Part shown: positions 14,551-48,803 of the stretch, one piece after another
Layout: the number at the start of each line of letters is the position of its first letter
How positions within the stretch are numbered: position 1 is the first letter of the stretch
NCBI GenBank assembly: GCA_017443345.1
Contig: JAFSNR010000191.1
Location: forward strand, 1-52,471
DNA from: Prevotella sp.
GTDB lineage: Bacteria; Bacteroidota; Bacteroidia; Bacteroidales; Bacteroidaceae
Reading direction: 5' to 3'
Length of the DNA stretch: 52,471 nucleotides
The notes under the pieces: model-generated
Seen by the model: only the letters and a program-made list of their open reading frames with translations
What the model was told of the DNA's origin: nothing
The model's database searches: none
Position numbers and translations under genes: made by a program

Positions 14551-14596
14551 ACTGTAAACTGTAATCCGTAAACTGTAAACAATAAACTCTAAACTA
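14551..14596 (-). repeat. GTTTANR heptad tract, hisH leader
   Basis: Between purU and hisH. In sense it contains GTTTAGA, GTTTATT, GTTTACA, GTTTACG, GATTACA, GTTTACA and ends directly at the hisH ATG. See findings for the other members of the family. Confidence 0.8.
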
Positions 14597-15457
14597 TCAA
14601 CTAAAAATAATGGTTTTATTTTTGTAAGTCAGAATCTTCCTCTGAATATGCTTCGAAACAGCGTGCGAAAGCACAATCTTCTCCAGATCCTTGCCTTTCA
14701 GCACAAGGCTTTCAGGCGTATCCTTATGCGTGATGCGCGTCACGTCCTGTTCGATGATAGGTCCTGCGTCGAGCTCTGCCGTTACATAATGACTCGTTGC
14801 ACCGATAATCTTCACGCCACGTTCGTAGGCCTGATGATATGGCTTCGCACCGATAAAGGCTGGCAGGAACGAATGGTGGATGTTGATGATGTGATGCGGA
14901 TACTCGGCAATCATCTCGTCACTGATAATCTGCATATAGCGTGCCAGTACGATAAACGAGATATCCTCCTTCTTCAGCAGATCCATCTCTGCCTGTTCCA
15001 CCTCGGCCTTATTCGAGTGATCCTTCTTGATGCTCCAGACATAGTAGGGGATACCAAACTGATCGGCCACATAGCGCAGATCTTCGTGGTTTGACACGAT
15101 ACAGGGGATGTCGCAATTAAACTCGCCAGCCTTCCAACGAGCCAGCAGGTCGTAGAGACAGTGACTCATCTTCGAGACGAAGATCGCCATCCTCGGACGC
15201 TTGTCGCTGTAGTAGAGCGAGAATTTCATTTGGTAACGCTGGGCATAGAGCGTGGTGATATAGTCATATAGCTTGTCACGAGGAATCAAGAACCCTTCGA
15301 GCTCCCATTCAATACGCATGAAAAACATACCGTCTACCTTGTCCACATACTGGTCCAGATAGACAATATTACCTTTGTTATCCGTGATAAATTTCGTCAC
15401 TTCCGAGATGATACCCTGCTGATCAGGGCAGTGCAAGAGCAAAATTGCAGTCGTCAT
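14597..15457 (-). CDS. purU: Formyltetrahydrofolate deformylase
   Basis: 286 aa. It hydrolyses 10-formyl-THF to THF and formate, balancing one-carbon pools and supplying formate to purine synthesis. N-terminal ACT domain (LLHCPDQQGIISEVTKFI), then a formyltransferase-fold domain with the catalytic region NIHHSFLPAF and HYVTAELDAGPIIEQD. First gene of the leftward block; linkage to the his genes makes sense because histidine synthesis releases AICAR, a purine intermediate that needs formyl-THF. Confidence 0.94.
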   Translation of the reverse strand: MTTAILLLHCPDQQGIISEVTKFITDNKGNIVYLDQYVDKVDGMFFMRIEWELEGFLIPRDKLYDYITTLYAQRYQMKFSLYYSDKRPRMAIFVSKMSHCLYDLLARWKAGEFNCDIPCIVSNHEDLRYVADQFGIPYYVWSIKKDHSNKAEVEQAEMDLLKKEDISFIVLARYMQIISDEMIAEYPHHIINIHHSFLPAFIGAKPYHQAYERGVKIIGATSHYVTAELDAGPIIEQDVTRITHKDTPESLVLKGKDLEKIVLSHAVSKHIQRKILTYKNKTIIFS

Positions 15458-22811: not shown

Positions 22812-22842
22812 TTGTTTACGGTTTACAGTTTACGGTTTACAG
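22812..22842 (+). repeat. GTTTACR heptad tract, atpC leader
   Basis: Four regular 7-base units (GTTTACG, GTTTACA, GTTTACG, GTTTACA), followed by GAT and the atpC ATG at 22845. The cleanest example of the family. Confidence 0.85.
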
Positions 22843-37275: not shown

Positions 37276-37377
37276 CTATAGACCCATGCAACTCGTAGCA
37301 CCCAGTGCTGTCAGCACAGCTGAGATAATCGAAGCGAGAATCTGCAGCGACCACTTAAGCGTTTCCTTCTTCGTCAT
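37276..37377 (-). CDS. Smalltalk-family mini-protein
   Basis: 33 aa: starts MTKKETLKWSLQILAS and ends ATSCMGL. A basic N-terminus, one membrane-length hydrophobic helix (about 9-27) and a cysteine near the end match the Bacteroidales small proteins that NCBI calls 'smalltalk'. These usually sit beside a HU-like gene and an amidase or peptidase gene; here the HU gene is directly upstream. An extended Shine-Dalgarno AAAGGAGGTGA lies just before the ATG, rare in this phylum, and strongly supports translation. Role unknown; a holin-like or membrane-signal role is only speculation. Confidence 0.72.
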   Translation of the reverse strand: MTKKETLKWSLQILASIISAVLTALGATSCMGL

Positions 37378-37419: not shown

Positions 37420-38028
37420 CTAGTTGCCAAGGTCAAAACCACCGCTGTTCTCGGAACCCGAACCACCGGTCTCTGAGCCCGTCGAAGAGCCTCCGTTCTG
37501 CGCCTTCCACTCTGCCACAGCAGTGGCGATGGGCTTCAGGGTGGTCACGCTCTTCTCCTTGCCGTTGATAACGACCTTCTGAGTCGCGATGATGTTGCGA
37601 AGCTCCAGCGTGCAGTGATCCTTGAAAGCAGGGCCACAAAGGTTATCCAGCTTCGTGGAGTCAGGCAGGAAACGGATGTGGATTGCCTTAACGACATCGT
37701 TCGGATTCAGACCGTCCATAGCCGCAATGTTTGGTACAGCTGCATCCTTCTTCACCTCAGCGGTGGGGTAGAAGGTTCCCAGACTGCCCAGCTGAACGGG
37801 CACGCCCTGTGCGACGAGTTCGGGAAGACACTCAGTGATCTGCATCAGCACGCCCTCGACAATGGCACGTCCGTAGATCGAGCCGTGATCTGTCATGTGC
37901 TGTGCGAAACCTCGCAGACTCAGGGTCTTCTGCTGGTCTACCTCAGGATAATACTTACCATAGGCTGATGAGCCCTCGATTTTGTTCTGTCGGAGATTAA
38001 TCCCCATTGCAATTTTCTGTGTTGACAT
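37420..38028 (-). CDS. HU-HIG family DNA-binding protein
   Basis: 202 aa. The N-terminal two thirds (GINLRQNKIEGSSAYGKYYP ... GSLGTFYPTAEVKK ... IHIRFLPDS) fit the HU-like fold of the Bacteroidales HU-HIG family. The tail (GGSSTGSETGGSGSENSGG) is the glycine-rich type. Such proteins bind and bend DNA; they are common in phage-like and primase-containing modules of Bacteroidales. It is co-transcribed with the smalltalk gene and lies next to the palindrome/repeat region at 38244-38615, a possible binding target (inference). Confidence 0.82.
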   Translation of the reverse strand: MSTQKIAMGINLRQNKIEGSSAYGKYYPEVDQQKTLSLRGFAQHMTDHGSIYGRAIVEGVLMQITECLPELVAQGVPVQLGSLGTFYPTAEVKKDAAVPNIAAMDGLNPNDVVKAIHIRFLPDSTKLDNLCGPAFKDHCTLELRNIIATQKVVINGKEKSVTTLKPIATAVAEWKAQNGGSSTGSETGGSGSENSGGFDLGN

Positions 38029-38147
38029 AATTTTAAAATGTTGTTCGTAATATTAGATTCTGTGCGACCATCTACACCGGCTGGCCACCTACCGCTTTTT
38101 TATGTCTCTCATGATTGACTTTGCATTGTGATCTCTTAATCACACTG

Positions 38148-38179
38148 CAAAGGTACAAAAAAAAATAATACAAACCAAA
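38148..38179 (-). promoter_or_regulatory. Promoter of the HU-HIG/smalltalk operon
   Basis: On the minus strand TTTG (38179-38176), 20 bases, TACCTTTG (38155-38148). Full consensus. The leader is about 110 bases and contains a small GTGAT/ATCAC inverted repeat. Confidence 0.82.
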
Positions 38180-38243
38180 TTTTTCGCGAATTATTTTTCA
38201 ATTATTTTAGGGTATAAACATCCTCAAAAGGAGGTCATTTAAC

Positions 38244-38301
38244 CAGGTCGGCTACGATCGTCGATCAGGTCGGCTACGACTGCCCGCTTAGTCGGCTACG
38301 G
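38244..38301. repeat. Three direct repeats at 22-bp period, left of the palindrome
   Basis: CAGGTCGGCTACGA starts at 38244 and again at 38266; TTAGTCGGCTACGG starts at 38288. The 14-base core is conserved and the following 8 bases vary. The start-to-start distance is exactly 22 bases, two DNA turns, as in iterons. Confidence 0.8.
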
Positions 38302-38329
38302 TCATCATTCAGCTTCTAGAAGTACAGGG

Positions 38330-38497
38330 CGTAACACCGTAACACCGTAACATTAGGTTTTTTGTTTATACAAGCAAATGCTCTATATAATATATATCAT
38401 TAATAATATATTATAATATATTATTAATGATAATAAATAGTATGATTATTTAATCCACTATTGATTTTTCCTAATGTTACGGTGTTACGGTGTTACG
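38330..38497. repeat. Concentric double palindrome (28-bp arms plus 38-bp core)
   Basis: Outer perfect 28-bp inverted arms at 38330-38357 and 38470-38497, each made of CCGTAACA-type iterations ending in TTAGG. Inside lies a perfect 38-bp AT-only-core palindrome (38395-38432) with no loop. Both share the same centre, 38413.5. The 37-base segments between arm and core are unrelated but equal in length. It resembles a replication origin, recombination site or large hairpin element. Confidence 0.9.
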
Positions 38498-38517
38498 GCG
38501 TTGATTTTGAATGTCCA

Positions 38518-38615
38518 GTTGATTGACTTTCCTGATATGGTTGACATCCTTTTCTGAACAAGTTGACATCCTCATACTGGAATCGTTGACACTCTTCCTG
38601 AAAAAGTTGTCAATG
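38518..38615. repeat. Four to five direct repeats at about 22-bp period, right of the palindrome
   Basis: Units begin GTTGATTGAC (38518), GTTGACATCC (38540), GTTGACATCC (38562), GTTGACACTC (38585), with a partial GTTGTCAATG (38606). Steps are 22, 22, 23 and 21 bases. Each unit carries a later CTG(A/G)A motif. Confidence 0.78.
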
Positions 38616-38726
38616 TAAAATAAAATAGGGCGTGCATAACTGCAACTCACAAAGAAATCTATTTAATCTTTGACGGCTACAAAGATAGACATTTGTTTCC
38701 ATTTCTCCAAATTTCCAGCCATATAT

Positions 38727-38757
38727 TTTGTATCTTCGATAAAAACCATTATCTTTG
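38727..38757 (+). promoter_or_regulatory. Promoter of the 38798 lipoprotein gene
   Basis: TTTG (38727-38730), 19 bases, TATCTTTG (38750-38757). The ATG follows 40 bases after the box. Confidence 0.8.
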
Positions 38758-38797
38758 CAGAAACATTTATAAATTAAAAGACTAGAAAACTATAGTT

Positions 38798-39184
38798 ATG
38801 AAGCCAAAGTATTTTCTTATCATGTTAACTCTCGCGATGGGCTTTGCCTTAACGAGTGTGATGACTTCCTGTTCGAAGGAGGAGAGTCCATACATAAAAA
38901 GTAGTTTAGATGTAACGGATCCTGATGGAACGTTAGAGGTTAGCGAAACTAATATCAGACTCCCTTCTGATGGTAAACCTGTGAAATTAATTGCAACGTA
39001 CAAAAGCTCAAAAGGACTATATGAACCAACTGCGATTACTATGTGTGATGAAGATGGAAACAAAGTCATTGGTGTTCAAGATGGTGATAACATGACATTT
39101 GATATAGTTAGGGAAGGCACATACACCGTCAGTGCAGGTAGTTTAAGTCTTAAGGTAATTGCGATCTCTATGGGGTCCAATTAA
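38798..39184 (+). CDS. Small lipoprotein, function unknown
   Basis: 128 aa. Lipoprotein signal peptide with lipobox VMTSC (Cys about residue 26). The mature part is short and beta-rich (LEVSETNIRLPSDGKPVKLIATY, GTYTVSAGSLSLKVIAIS), like a single Ig-type fold. Lower GC than the housekeeping neighbours. It has its own promoter. No family recognised. Confidence 0.7.
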   Translation: MKPKYFLIMLTLAMGFALTSVMTSCSKEESPYIKSSLDVTDPDGTLEVSETNIRLPSDGKPVKLIATYKSSKGLYEPTAITMCDEDGNKVIGVQDGDNMTFDIVREGTYTVSAGSLSLKVIAISMGSN

Positions 39185-44512: not shown

Positions 44513-44959
44513 ATGAAAATGAAAACAGAACAACAGAATAAGGATTTGATGCGTCGGGCCGTGCGACACCTGCTGGTGACGGATGACGACGTGATGAATG
44601 AGGCGGAGCGCATCGTGGGGCACACCCTGCAGCGCGAAAACCAAGGTGATAACGGATGCCTGACGGTGACGGAGATTGCCAGGGAGCTGGATATGGAAGC
44701 CAGAGACCTGAACTCGTTTCTCCGCGACATGGGTATCCAACGGTGGAAGCAAGGTCAGTACAGACTCACTCCCCAATATGAGGGCAGAGGGCTGACGCAC
44801 GACAGGCTTTTCATCTACTACTCGACGAAGGACGGGAAAAAGAAACGTCAGACCTATCTCGTCTGGACTCCCAAAGGTCTGGAATTTATAAGGAGTTTGA
44901 TTAGAGGAAAAGGCAAGGATAATTCAAAACAGGTTAAAAGAAATGGAAAAGACTGTTAG
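44513..44959 (+). CDS. Phage antirepressor-like protein (KilAC/ANT domain)
   Basis: 148 aa. Residues about 45-140 (GCLTVTEIARELDMEARDLN, YSTKDGKKKRQTYLVWTPKG, EFIRSLI) match the C-terminal KilAC/ANT domain of phage antirepressors: a helix-turn-helix followed by a beta wing. The N-terminal Bro/KilA-N part is absent. First gene of a cassette; the next starts inside its end (17-base overlap). Likely a DNA-binding regulator or replication accessory. Confidence 0.75.
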   Translation: MKMKTEQQNKDLMRRAVRHLLVTDDDVMNEAERIVGHTLQRENQGDNGCLTVTEIARELDMEARDLNSFLRDMGIQRWKQGQYRLTPQYEGRGLTHDRLFIYYSTKDGKKKRQTYLVWTPKGLEFIRSLIRGKGKDNSKQVKRNGKDC

Positions 44960-45236
44960 AATTTTGGAGCAGTCGGCGCTTTCTACAAGAAAGTACACCG
45001 ACAAAAAGACTGGTCAGGAAAAGGTGATGAATGCCGTTACCTTTAAGCTGACTGATGGTATCGACACGTTCTTGGGCGAGGTGACAGGCGAACGAGCTGT
45101 TAACTGTCCGATGTACGACAAGAACTGCTTCTACAGGGTACAGTGCTCTATGGTTGTCAGGGACTGGATGTCTCAGCAAACAGGAGAACAGATGCAGGCT
45201 ACGACTATTTATATCGACAAGATCAATGTTGCATGA
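44943..45236 (+). CDS. Small conserved protein, possibly OB-fold
   Basis: 97 aa. MEKTVRILEQSALSTRKYTD, then GIDTFLGEVTGERAVNC, NCFYRVQCSMVVRDW and a last strand TTIYIDKINVA. The strand pattern and position in a primase cassette would fit a single-strand DNA-binding protein, but no diagnostic motif is visible. Overlaps both neighbours, so translation is coupled. Confidence 0.6.
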   Translation: MEKTVRILEQSALSTRKYTDKKTGQEKVMNAVTFKLTDGIDTFLGEVTGERAVNCPMYDKNCFYRVQCSMVVRDWMSQQTGEQMQATTIYIDKINVA

Positions 45237-45763
45237 CGTTAGAATATCTTGAATTAATGGAAGAGATTAAGAAGCAGGAGAACGAGGTGCAAGGCACCTC
45301 TTCTCCACGTAGGAAGCTGCAGAGATCGTTTAAGTCGAACACTCGCATCTATGATGACGGTTCGATAGAGGTTGACCCACAGGCTCAGGGCGAGCCGAGT
45401 CAGAAGGATGTGAAGAAGGTGGGTAAGTCGAAGCGGTATATTACCAACGGTAAGAACCCGCTGACGTGTGTGGAACTGAAATGTCCTGAGGATGTGCCCG
45501 ACAAGGCTGCCTTCTTCCACAAGGAACTGGCAAAGCTGACGAAGGACATTCAGATCGAGGAGCCGGAGATGCCTGAGGGTGAGTTCCTGTTGGATGAACC
45601 CTGCGTGAAGGTACGCTTTGCGGCAAAGGAGCACAAGGTTGTGGCCTGGCTCACATTCGAGGCTAAAGGATTGATAGACGTAAGGAGAGAGCTGTACAAT
45701 CTAACAAGCAAGATTGACAAATGTTTTGTTATCAACGAAGCTTCGGTTTGCCAACTGAGGTAG
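45233..45763 (+). CDS. Hypothetical protein of the primase cassette
   Basis: 176 aa from the ATG at 45233, in the ATGA overlap with the previous stop. Frame open further upstream, but that would run inside the previous gene. N-terminal charged coil (EEIKKQENEVQG), a basic region (RRKLQRSFKSNTR, KKVGKSKRY), then an alpha/beta part (CVKVRFAAKEHKVVAWLTFE). No family recognised. Ends six bases before the primase ATG. Confidence 0.65.
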   Translation: MTLEYLELMEEIKKQENEVQGTSSPRRKLQRSFKSNTRIYDDGSIEVDPQAQGEPSQKDVKKVGKSKRYITNGKNPLTCVELKCPEDVPDKAAFFHKELAKLTKDIQIEEPEMPEGEFLLDEPCVKVRFAAKEHKVVAWLTFEAKGLIDVRRELYNLTSKIDKCFVINEASVCQLR

Positions 45764-45768
45764 TAACG

Positions 45769-48252
45769 ATGGAACAGTTCAGGGCGCTCATTTCGGCGCC
45801 CCGAACTGTTCAACAAGTGAAGGAGGCTCGCGAGGCTCTGGCTCGTGGCGACAAGAAGACCTACGATGCCAAGAAGAAGGGGCTGCCCCTGGCAATCTTT
45901 ATCGGCACCTTTGAGGAGTCGGTAAAGGTGTTTGAGGATAAAAAGACTGGCGAGAAGAGGGAAGTAAAAGGCTGCTGGCGACTGCAGAAGCATTGCAGGC
46001 TGAATGGGTTGTGCGTGATTGACTTTGACCATGTTGAGGGCGATGTCCGTAAGGTGTGGCAGGAGGCTTACGAGAAGCTTTCGGACGAGGACAAGGCGAG
46101 GATTCTCTTCGTGTTCGTAACGCCAAGTGGGCATGGATTGAAAGTGGTTTTCATAGCCGATGCTGCGGTAGGCAACCTGATAGACAATCAGATTGTCTTT
46201 TCGCGGAAGCTTGGGCTCAACCCTGATGAGGCCTGCAAGGATGCCAGTCGTGGGGCATTCCTGACTACGAGTGACGACATTATTTTTATTGACGAAGAAA
46301 GACTGATTAATTATGAAAGTGAAGAATTTGGTAGTAAGTATGATGCTGAGTATCATGCTGGTCATAGCCAGCCTACTATTGACGTTGCTAAGAGCAGTGC
46401 TGATGGTGCTGATATGGCCCATGTGGAAGGTGCTGCAGAAGACCGACATGCTGTATCAAGAAGTGATGGAGAGAACAAGTTGGTTGTTGATGCTCTGACG
46501 TATCACAACGTGCCGTACAGCAGGATTGTGGAGGCATGGGTTGGCGACAAGAAGATTGAGCAGGGCGACAGGCATAGGACAAGTCTGGTGCTGGCCGACC
46601 ACCTGCGATACATCACGGATAACGACCCAAGACTGATAGAGCAGATTCTGAGAGAGACTCCCTTTGTGAAGGAGATTATCGAGGAACGAGGCGAGGATGT
46701 GGCTCAGACCGTGAAGAGTGCCCGGGGGTATGAGTTTCTGAAAGGTATTCCCAAGCGGATGCAGCAGGCGCTGAAGGCTGCTGGAGCCCTGTCATCTCGA
46801 CCTTGTGGAGAGATCTCAAGAGATTCCTCGACTTCGCTCGGGATGACAAGTGGGGGAACGCTCGGAATGACAGGGGGCTCTGAGGACATCTACGCAGCGA
46901 TGCCACTGGATAAATGGGCTGAAGAGTTGCTGGAGATGGCGGAGTATTATCCCTGCTTGAAGGAGTTGTTCCTGAATGTGCATCCGCATAAGTTGCCAGC
47001 GGTGTGGTTCTCTTCGGCAGCGATGTTCGGCACGCTGATGACTCGTGCGTGGTATCATTTTTGGTACGAGCCGGAGATTATCAGGCGACTGAATTACAGC
47101 ATCTTTATCATCGGTGATCCCGGAGCAGGCAAGAACGTCATCGAGAAGTTCTACAAGAAGATTGCCGACCCGATGATCCAGGCCGACCAGTGCCTGATAG
47201 CCGCTGTGAACCGCTACAAGGAGGGCCGCACGGAGCGAACTACTTCGACAAAGGCTCAGAAAGCGGAGGCTCTGAAAAGGCCTGTCGTGGGTATCCGAGT
47301 GCACCCAGCTCGAACGGCTACCGGTGAGTTTATCCGCCACATGAATGCGGCTATCGAGACGGTTCAGGGGCAACCTCTGAATCTGCACATGTTCTCGTTC
47401 GATGCAGAGTTGGACAACGTTACCAAGCAGAATAAGGGTGGCGACTGGAAGGACCGCGAAATCCTTGAATTGAAGGCATTTCATAACGAGGAAGACGGTC
47501 AGATGTATGCCAATCAGGAATCGGTTACCGGTATGTTCAACGTGTTCTGGAATTTCATCTATACCGGCACGCCCTATGCCCTGCACCGTAAGGTGAATCA
47601 ACGGAATTTCGGTACTGGTATGTCGACCCGTCTGGCTGTGATTCCATTGCCCGATATGGGCATGGCAAAACGGCATCAGCAGGTGGATTCAAATAGTAAC
47701 GAGATGCTGAAGACATGGGCTTACAGACTGGATCGTGTTGAGGGTGAGATCCCTATCGAACCGCTGAACGACGAGACTTTCGAATGGCAGTCGAACCATC
47801 TCGAGATTGCTGAATTCAATGGCGACAAGGCAGACAGGACTCTGCTGAAGCGAATTCCGTATTACGGCATCGGCATCTCTCTTCCGTTTATCCTGATGCG
47901 TCATTGGGATGAGTGGCAGGAGTCTCGCAGTCTGACAATGGATGACAGAGATAAGCGTTTATGCCGTCTGGCTATGGAGATTCAGTACAAGTGCCAGCAG
48001 TTCTTCTTCGGCGAAATGGCATTCAATTATTTTGCCGACCAGAACAAGGAGTTCGTTGTCAGGAAACGCAGCACCCGCTACAGTGAGTGCTTCCGTAAGC
48101 TGCCCGATGAGTTCAAGACGCAACAGTTCATGGATTGCTTCGGATGTTCTCAACCTTCAGCTTCTAAGGCTATCACTCGCTTTCAAAATGACAAAATTGT
48201 CGAGATAGTGAAATATGGACTTTATCGTAAACTGGTGCAGGAACTACCATAG
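45769..48252 (+). CDS. BT4734/VirE N-terminal-type primase fused to helicase-like ATPase (DUF3987-like)
   Basis: 827 aa from ATG 45769 (MEQFRALISAP). The archaeo-eukaryotic primase (AEP) domain has the DxD pair D85/D87 (CVIDFDHV) and sxH H122 (TPSGHGLK); then a helical linker, and an ATPase with Walker A IIGDPGAGKN (about 448-456). BT4734-like AEP proteins belong to mobile or cryptic replicons of Bacteroidales and are thought to prime and unwind DNA. Residues about 341-369 are encoded by a REP-like element inserted in frame between the two domains. The ATG at 45721 is less likely because it overlaps the previous gene. The long minus-strand frame across it is a shadow. Confidence 0.85.
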   Translation: MEQFRALISAPRTVQQVKEAREALARGDKKTYDAKKKGLPLAIFIGTFEESVKVFEDKKTGEKREVKGCWRLQKHCRLNGLCVIDFDHVEGDVRKVWQEAYEKLSDEDKARILFVFVTPSGHGLKVVFIADAAVGNLIDNQIVFSRKLGLNPDEACKDASRGAFLTTSDDIIFIDEERLINYESEEFGSKYDAEYHAGHSQPTIDVAKSSADGADMAHVEGAAEDRHAVSRSDGENKLVVDALTYHNVPYSRIVEAWVGDKKIEQGDRHRTSLVLADHLRYITDNDPRLIEQILRETPFVKEIIEERGEDVAQTVKSARGYEFLKGIPKRMQQALKAAGALSSRPCGEISRDSSTSLGMTSGGTLGMTGGSEDIYAAMPLDKWAEELLEMAEYYPCLKELFLNVHPHKLPAVWFSSAAMFGTLMTRAWYHFWYEPEIIRRLNYSIFIIGDPGAGKNVIEKFYKKIADPMIQADQCLIAAVNRYKEGRTERTTSTKAQKAEALKRPVVGIRVHPARTATGEFIRHMNAAIETVQGQPLNLHMFSFDAELDNVTKQNKGGDWKDREILELKAFHNEEDGQMYANQESVTGMFNVFWNFIYTGTPYALHRKVNQRNFGTGMSTRLAVIPLPDMGMAKRHQQVDSNSNEMLKTWAYRLDRVEGEIPIEPLNDETFEWQSNHLEIAEFNGDKADRTLLKRIPYYGIGISLPFILMRHWDEWQESRSLTMDDRDKRLCRLAMEIQYKCQQFFFGEMAFNYFADQNKEFVVRKRSTRYSECFRKLPDEFKTQQFMDCFGCSQPSASKAITRFQNDKIVEIVKYGLYRKLVQELP
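46790..46872 (+). repeat. REP-like repeat inserted in frame in the primase gene
   Basis: 46790-46848 is a 59-bp unit ending in near-perfect 11-bp inverted arms (TGTCATCTCGA / TCGGGATGACA), with a partial second unit CTCGGAATGACA (46861-46872). Read backwards it spells VIPSEVEESLEISPQGRD, the known signature of a widespread intergenic repeat. Confidence 0.85.
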
Positions 48253-48299
48253 TTATTCACTTATTCAGTTATTCACTTTGGACATTAAGTTTTTTAAAT

Positions 48300-48803
48300 A
48301 TGGAACAGGTAAGTATCAATAAACAAGCGAAACTCTCTGAACACTTTGTGCTCGGGGAGTTGACGAAGACGAAGTACAAGACTGCGGATGGGAATATTCC
48401 GAGTCATGTGGTGATTGAGAATTTGAAGCGGATTTGTGAGAATTGGCTGGAGGATCTGAGGTACAGCTATAATACGCTGTATTGCTTAGAGCCTGGGGAG
48501 GATTATGAATCTTCCAAGAACGTTGAGCCTCTCGTTATAAACTCTGGGTATCGTTCGCCAGCGGTTAATAAATTAGCGGGCGGGGCTGCAAATAGCAATC
48601 ATTTGACAGGTTGTGCGGTGGATATCCGCTGCACGGGGAAGGAGCAGATGATACGCTATGCGTCGATACTGCTCGACATTGCCGATGGTACCAAGCAGGA
48701 ATTTGACGAGCTGCTATTAGAGCAGCATGGCAACGTCTGCTGGCTGCACTTCGCGGTAAGGCCGAAGGATAATCGGAGGAAAGTGGCGTTCCTGCAGACG
48801 TAG
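48300..48803 (+). CDS. M15-type peptidoglycan peptidase
   Basis: 167 aa. Zinc site SNHLTGCAVDI (H101, D108) and WLHFAV (H150) match the D-Ala-D-Ala/L,D-carboxypeptidase M15 group. N-terminal KLSEHFVLGELTKTKY is typical of the phage-like Peptidase_M15 family of Bacteroidales modules. No signal peptide is seen, so export would need a holin-like or other route. It is 47 bases after the primase; the gap holds TTATTCACT repeats. Confidence 0.85.
   Translation: MEQVSINKQAKLSEHFVLGELTKTKYKTADGNIPSHVVIENLKRICENWLEDLRYSYNTLYCLEPGEDYESSKNVEPLVINSGYRSPAVNKLAGGAANSNHLTGCAVDIRCTGKEQMIRYASILLDIADGTKQEFDELLLEQHGNVCWLHFAVRPKDNRRKVAFLQT

Follow-up and report, generated by a model that had tools for sequence, protein, structure and literature searches.

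Inverted arms built of short direct repeats, in dispersed copies, are characteristic of foldback (FB) elements and miniature inverted-repeat transposable elements (MITEs), and in iteron-type partition or replication sites and in met boxes short tandem units adjoin the promoter from which a DNA-binding protein is expressed. The element described here lies at positions 38330..38497 of a 52,471-nucleotide stretch of Prevotella sp. DNA (contig JAFSNR010000191.1 of assembly GCA_017443345.1; this whole stretch is called the window, and is contig 170, or C170, of a 4.16-Mb genome in 204 contigs), upstream of a gene for an HU-HIG protein. With FB elements and MITEs it shares repeat-built inverted arms and dispersed copies but, unlike them, shows no recognised target duplication or transposase and is linked to the upstream side of one gene family. 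With iterons and met boxes it has in common the tandem short units near a promoter of that kind; in contrast to theirs, its unit letters change while HU-HIG remains 97% identical. BrickBuilt, a MITE of Porphyromonas gingivalis, is described as having internal 23-nt repeats and separate inverted ends (PMC4596501). Both are intergenic, multi-copy Bacteroidota elements with tandem direct repeats and small inverted ends, and promoter activity is reported for BrickBuilt. Here, by comparison, the 7-9-bp repeats form the inverted ends themselves, around an AT-rich, often palindromic core, and the elements switch their units concertedly and are linked to HU-HIG. Repetitive extragenic palindromic (REP) sequences, 20-40 bp long by their description (PMC3733652), are likewise extragenic palindromes, whereas our elements are well over 100 bp long and the sequence of their tandem arms varies. 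Among the results listed by text searches of the literature there was no paper on these elements. Their two arms change letters together while the shape is kept; this suggests that the fold, and not the letters, is what matters.

The preliminary description of the window had read the site as two palindromes about one centre, and we confirm this geometry in full. The left arm (38330..38357, plus strand) consists of three tandem octamers of CCGTAACA type and TTAGG; the outermost left octamer reads GCGTAACA. The right arm (38470..38497, minus strand) is an exact inverted copy, the two 28-bp arms being perfectly complementary and separated by 112 nt. Between them, two 37-nt spacers (38358..38394 and 38433..38469), which are not complementary to each other, enclose a loop-free, perfectly palindromic 38-bp core (38395..38432) with A or T at 36 of 38 bases, an AT-rich core of the kind common to the family, and core and arms share the centre 38413.5. 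The element has the terminal inverted repeats of a MITE or foldback element. Folding, which had been proposed as a check, gave -49.1 kcal/mol for the single-stranded DNA against -14.0 for shuffled sequence (z -13.4; 0 of 200 shuffles equally stable) and an RNA fold that is also very stable (z -12.4 against shuffles), and we judge the suggested DNA hairpin likely as a foldback. What did not hold up is the weight given to equal spacers and an exactly shared centre as a functional signal. Our detector reports 71 inverted repeats, not all of them members of the family. Their longest perfect inner palindrome (median length 16) is exactly centred in 9, with 0.7 expected under uniform placement, is at most 5 nt off centre in 26 and at most 15 nt in 48. 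Such elements thus often have an AT palindrome near their middle; the exact coincidence of centres is not conserved.

The window element is a member of a Prevotella family whose inverted arms, each a series of tandem 7-9-bp units, flank an AT-rich and often palindromic core. The unit varies among copies, yet it is mostly uniform across all repeats of both arms. The window arm (three times CCGTAACA, at most one mismatch) was found in 6 of 150 genus genomes, several of which carry it in inverted pairs separated by about 200 bp, and several copies combine a related core with other units (CGCAACA, CGCTACA and others). A generalised pattern (CG...CA, three times) matched 47 places in 17 of 100 genomes against 2 for the reversed pattern; as CG and CA are fixed by the search, only the freedom of the remaining positions counts as a result. 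A motif-free detector, which requires perfect arms of at least 14 bp with period 7, 8 or 9 around an AT-rich core and is strict enough to miss decayed copies, recovered very different units, namely TTCTTACT, TTCGTACG, ACTTACTC, TCTTACAG, TTCAGTA, TGTGACAGT and TTTTGGTCA, and in the window's own genome additionally GGTCTCAC and GGATTTTG. It reported 0 elements in 1.66 Mb of sequence whose bases had been shuffled inside 200-base windows, and in 400 kb of spaced control DNA from one related genome (G117; G, C and L mark our labels for genomes, contigs and loci) 0 at a core AT content of at least 0.68, with two weaker ones at 0.60-0.62. Arms and AT core recur jointly in relatives, the view that drift is an unlikely source is supported, and HU-HIG genes are the recurrent neighbour. 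Arms and core occurring apart, which would have spoken against a functional unit, were not found in general, although single arms exist (L028) and L004 holds a two-unit remnant.

The strongest evidence that the arms change jointly comes from paralogous loci of G117. Between L110 and L111, A is replaced by G in all three aligned left units and all three right units, and between L116 and L118 a T to G change runs through nearly all units of both arms; the AT palindromes, of 52 and 50 bp respectively, are identical within each pair. The HU-HIG proteins are 97% identical within L110/L111 and within L116/L118, which argues against letter-specific binding by HU-HIG, and we rejected co-evolution of the unit sequence with HU-HIG on this ground. 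Mixed units are mirrored between the two arms in L084 and L095. In 29 CG..CA elements, the inner 23-nt arms show no mismatch in 13, 1-3 in 11, 6 in four and 15 in one, and hence at most 3 mismatches in 24 of the 29 pairs. The five most mismatched comprise two with truly different arms (L043 and L030), two with a one-base register shift (L106 and L013) and one with a decayed right arm (L089). When these 29 elements (23 distinct) were aligned, 92.4% of cells were paired, two-sided changes numbered 107 and one-sided changes 6, and the covariation score was 0.470 against 0.138 shuffled, reached by 0 of 500 shuffles. Paired cells, two-sided cells and covariation score all exceed every one of the 500 shuffles and all slid versions, counts that are not probabilities because the alignment rows are related by kinship.

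The second line of evidence is position. In the window, the HU-HIG gene (37420..38028, minus strand; PF18291, E 2.5e-11) starts 302 bp from the element and is followed by a smalltalk gene of 33 aa (37276..37377, minus strand; NF033879, E 3.3e-8, above the cut-off), so that both members of an HU-HIG cassette, the PF18291 gene and an adjoining NF033879 gene, are present. About 770 nt separate the HU-HIG gene from a small lipoprotein-like open reading frame on the plus strand, for which no Pfam match was found, and the element sits in this interval. The box TACCTTTG (38148..38155, minus strand), a promoter candidate for the HU-HIG gene, lies between element and gene, and a second one (38750-38757, plus strand) faces the other way; we take both to be examples of the Bacteroidota -7 motif. 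With such boxes at both flanks, the element falls outside both expected transcripts.

When 84,980 species genomes were scanned with a 19-base pattern, 65 stretches were returned, titled Prevotella, Prevotellaceae, Bacteroidaceae or Bacteroidales, all from uncultured assemblies except one complete isolate, Prevotella communis E15-14, and with ruminants as the stated sources. In this isolate (L300) an element is located about 430 bp 5' of an HU-HIG gene. Our own profile found an HU-HIG gene in 17 of the 65, a lower bound since the stretches end at 8-kb tiles or contig ends. In 17 of 17 its 5' end is turned toward the element, the distance to the closest arm being 38-774 bp, and in 16 the interval from arm to start codon contains a TAnnTTTG box. 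One of these linked stretches (L253) has an extra single arm 6 kb away on the other side. G117, with 12 HU-HIG hits on one contig, has three pattern pairs, each of them directly 5' of an HU-HIG gene. Around the ten of these genes that were read, the detector gave 7 elements in 193 kb, six with midpoints 296-618 bp 5' of an HU-HIG start (five genes) and one 3.2 kb off. Forty further regions, from G045, G076, G024 and G075, were chosen by listed HU-HIG hits and contain 45 HU-HIG genes (47 by the first profile); their 800 kb yielded 3 elements, all 332-494 bp 5' of HU-HIG. Once the three regions fetched for containing elements are left out, 1.33 Mb remain with 6 elements, of which 5 are located no more than 1 kb 5' of HU-HIG, a zone that makes up about 4% of the sequence; at a looser AT limit the count is 5 of 8. 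These counts are limited in that G117 was selected for having elements and the element of L231 was known before its region was fetched. The window's genome has elements 5' of HU-HIG at three loci (C170, C108 and C168); a fourth repeat reported by the detector (C52, L177) is downstream of its gene. Units of differing sequence and length (7 and 9 bp) hold this same 5' place in other genomes. By a home-made motif, smalltalk accompanies 8 of the 15 HU-HIG genes that are linked to an element in the named stretches, and 9 of the 45 genes in the forty regions, of which three have an element.

We favour, tentatively and at a probability of about 0.42, the reading that the element is a foldback end lying upstream in an HU-HIG cassette, that its fold rather than its letters is recognised, most likely by HU-HIG, and that template switching maintains the arms. 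That the structure is conserved while its letters are exchanged suggests that the fold is what is recognised and that template switching, which homogenises inverted-repeat arms (PMC8604942), keeps it up. HU proteins bind without sequence specificity and are avid for four-way junctions (PMC5683647). HU-HIG is the best candidate reader because its gene is the recurrent neighbour. The cassette would then run in the order foldback element, promoter, HU-HIG gene and often smalltalk gene. Template switching across the hairpin during replication may maintain the structure, and an out-of-register switch in the tandem arms would spread a changed unit to all repeats on both sides. The recognised form could be the hairpin or a cruciform extruded by supercoiling at the AT core, which the HU-HIG protein of the same cassette may sense or hold, tuning its own promoter. 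On this view, copies that stand alone would be MITE-like duplicates that had escaped. For the multi-copy HU-HIG family, the finding supplies a candidate cis-element in native loci. The natural locus pairs in which shape is constant and sequence switched make cruciform reading by an HU-type protein at a promoter testable, and allow the rewriting rate of inverted tandem arrays in bacteria to be measured.

Several observations weigh against this reading. Most of the HU-HIG genes read have no detectable element: one was found at only 3 of the 45 genes in the forty regions, at 5 of the 10 genes read in G117 (12 in total), at 3 loci in the window's genome, which has 26 HU-HIG hits, and at none of 20 genes in 270 kb outside the genus. 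Conversely, 48 of the 65 named stretches hold no HU-HIG gene by profile, no decayed HU-HIG was found near solitary elements at E 0.05 in 118 kb, and these solitary elements have no common neighbour family, with at most 2 of 52 proteins per family among the 25 of 75 families listed. No pattern match lies near any HU-HIG gene in G167, and a CGCTCCA element on C195 of the window's genome (L013) is unlinked to HU-HIG. As to the arms, L043 and L030 (both G002) carry different units in their two arms, and two measures of the alignment are not above shuffles: pairs with two-sided change (11 against 10.8 shuffled) and further pair types (27 against 29.2). The unequal arms of L043 and L030 may be a real exchange or a chimeric assembly within the core.

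The main rival is a foldback-type MITE with a positional bias, that is, a non-autonomous element with tandem-arm ends, moved by an unidentified enzyme and found at HU-HIG cassettes through target preference or hitch-hiking, with no regulatory role. We consider it doubtful but the most serious of the alternatives. It would account for the solitary copies between unrelated genes, for the clustered elements of G167 (L122) and for two pairs of loci, L099/L108 (G157) and L084 (G018)/L093 (G007), in which the shared sequence is the element alone, arm to arm. It also fits the two relatives, L131 and L134, in which the flank of the gene beside the window's cassette could be read: there this gene is followed by different genes, without HU-HIG or element, at a junction that is unaligned. 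L093/L104 and L095/L105 share extra short flanking pieces beyond the element, and synteny is broken at L104. In duplicated cassettes of G077, homology starts in the left arm and spans HU-HIG, with a separate piece over smalltalk; in L110-L112 of G117 it starts about 14 bp outside the arm and continues through the gene, and in L116/L118 it starts farther out. Empty and filled sites were compared with one genome per species. Against the MITE stand the lack of any target-site duplication recognisable by eye in the compared copies, whose tandem arms mask the exact ends, and of any autonomous partner or transposase with such ends in the loci read, though no dedicated search was made. It must also explain why unrelated elements with 7-, 8- and 9-bp units occupy the identical 5' position, and why HU-HIG turns its 5' end to the element in every linked stretch. 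The favoured reading and the MITE may both be true, of a mobile cassette end that also regulates. In G167, several elements stand in series on C1 (L122 and L107), some of them inside inverted heptamer arrays (GAGCAAT type). Some reading frames near elements of G167 and G002 look by eye like what we take to be BRO-N-like proteins.

An extension of fold recognition that we regard as unlikely makes each cassette a self-rewriting structural tag, in which a single copying event, hairpin-templated or reverse-transcriptase-like, would replace the unit in every repeat of both arms while HU-HIG reads the fold. If it were true, the cassettes of one genome would keep the same fold and differ in letters, and would so avoid recombination or cross-talk. 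Just as improbable, if not slightly more so, are iteron-like operators, in which a cognate protein, HU-HIG or other, would recognise the letters of the tandem units and have both arms as its binding arrays. Short tandem units 5' of a promoter do recall iteron or met-box operators, and CG and CA positions are conserved in one subfamily. That conservation is partly built into the search pattern, however, unrelated units occur at other loci, and L116 and L118 differ by two changes per unit with HU-HIG still 97% identical; a unit conserved together with its binding protein was thus not found with HU-HIG as the reader.

We hold out little prospect for a neutral by-product, hairpins and short tandem repeats fed by replication slippage with no function needed. 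Template switching and slippage are able to generate both features, and other short tandem arrays are present, but the shuffled and spaced control DNA described above, the position 5' of HU-HIG and the identity of the AT palindrome in paralogues with differing flanks all count against it. A structured RNA or bidirectional terminator is the least probable of all: very stable as the RNA fold is, the -7 boxes to either side both have the element on their 5' side, as does a TAnnTTTG box in 16 of 17 linked loci, G-U pairs are nearly absent from arms with 6 one-sided against 107 two-sided changes, the Rfam scan of the window gave two tRNAs only and no match at the element, neither a known-family match nor wobble-tolerant covariation was found, and 38000-38850 contains no terminator-like site, so that the RNA hairpin of the preliminary description is judged unlikely. 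Nor was evidence found for its origin, resolution or cleavage site; a BT4734-like gene (45721-48252) lies 7 kb from the element, and no primase appears among the 52 neighbours of solitary elements in the 25 of 75 Pfam families listed, the neighbours of elements other than the window's having been viewed mostly as the first residues of reading frames.

Beyond the genus, our survey covers the CG..CA pattern scan and the 20 HU-HIG loci. The generalised pattern gave 3 matches in 293 genomes against 3 reversed-control matches in the same scan of 296. A wide spread was rejected when the three matches were examined, L207 being a plain tandem array and L208 and L209 having no element by the detector. 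A plasmid or phage origin was also rejected: 38310-38640 had no match in plasmid or phage collections (BLAST, low-complexity filter on), and the 19-base pattern had 0 matches in viral contigs.

Copy numbers are lower bounds, since contigs ending just inside arms indicate that assemblies often break in the core: in 13 of the 65 named stretches the contig ends at most 92 bp inward of an arm. The same is seen in the window's genome, where a search with 38230-38600 found that C14 terminates within the core of a second copy, of which the right half is present at 94% identity. The end of C43 (L006) and the start of C49 (L007) carry arms of CCTTACA 7-bp units running into AT-rich DNA and are probably two further elements where the assembly broke. 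Elsewhere on C43, L144 (60951-61514), a 95% identical paralogue of the window's HU-HIG gene, has upstream of it the two-unit CGCTCCA arm remnant of L004.

Other repeats surround the element. An array of roughly 22-bp units ending in GTTGACA (38527..38609, plus strand) was copied together with the element's right half at C14. On the other side, an array of 22-bp units (GTCGGCTACGA...; 38244..38312, plus strand) is present elsewhere in the genome without this element; the same or related short arrays (AGCTTCCCAAGGG...) occur on, for example, C43, C73, C155, C195 and C200. Heptamer arrays of ACTGTAA or GTTTACG type lie in gene gaps of the window at 14551-14602 and 22814-22842, and the repeat script reported no inverted partner near either. 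At 44513-48803 the window holds a cluster of a KilAC-domain gene, the BT4734-like gene and an M15 peptidase gene.
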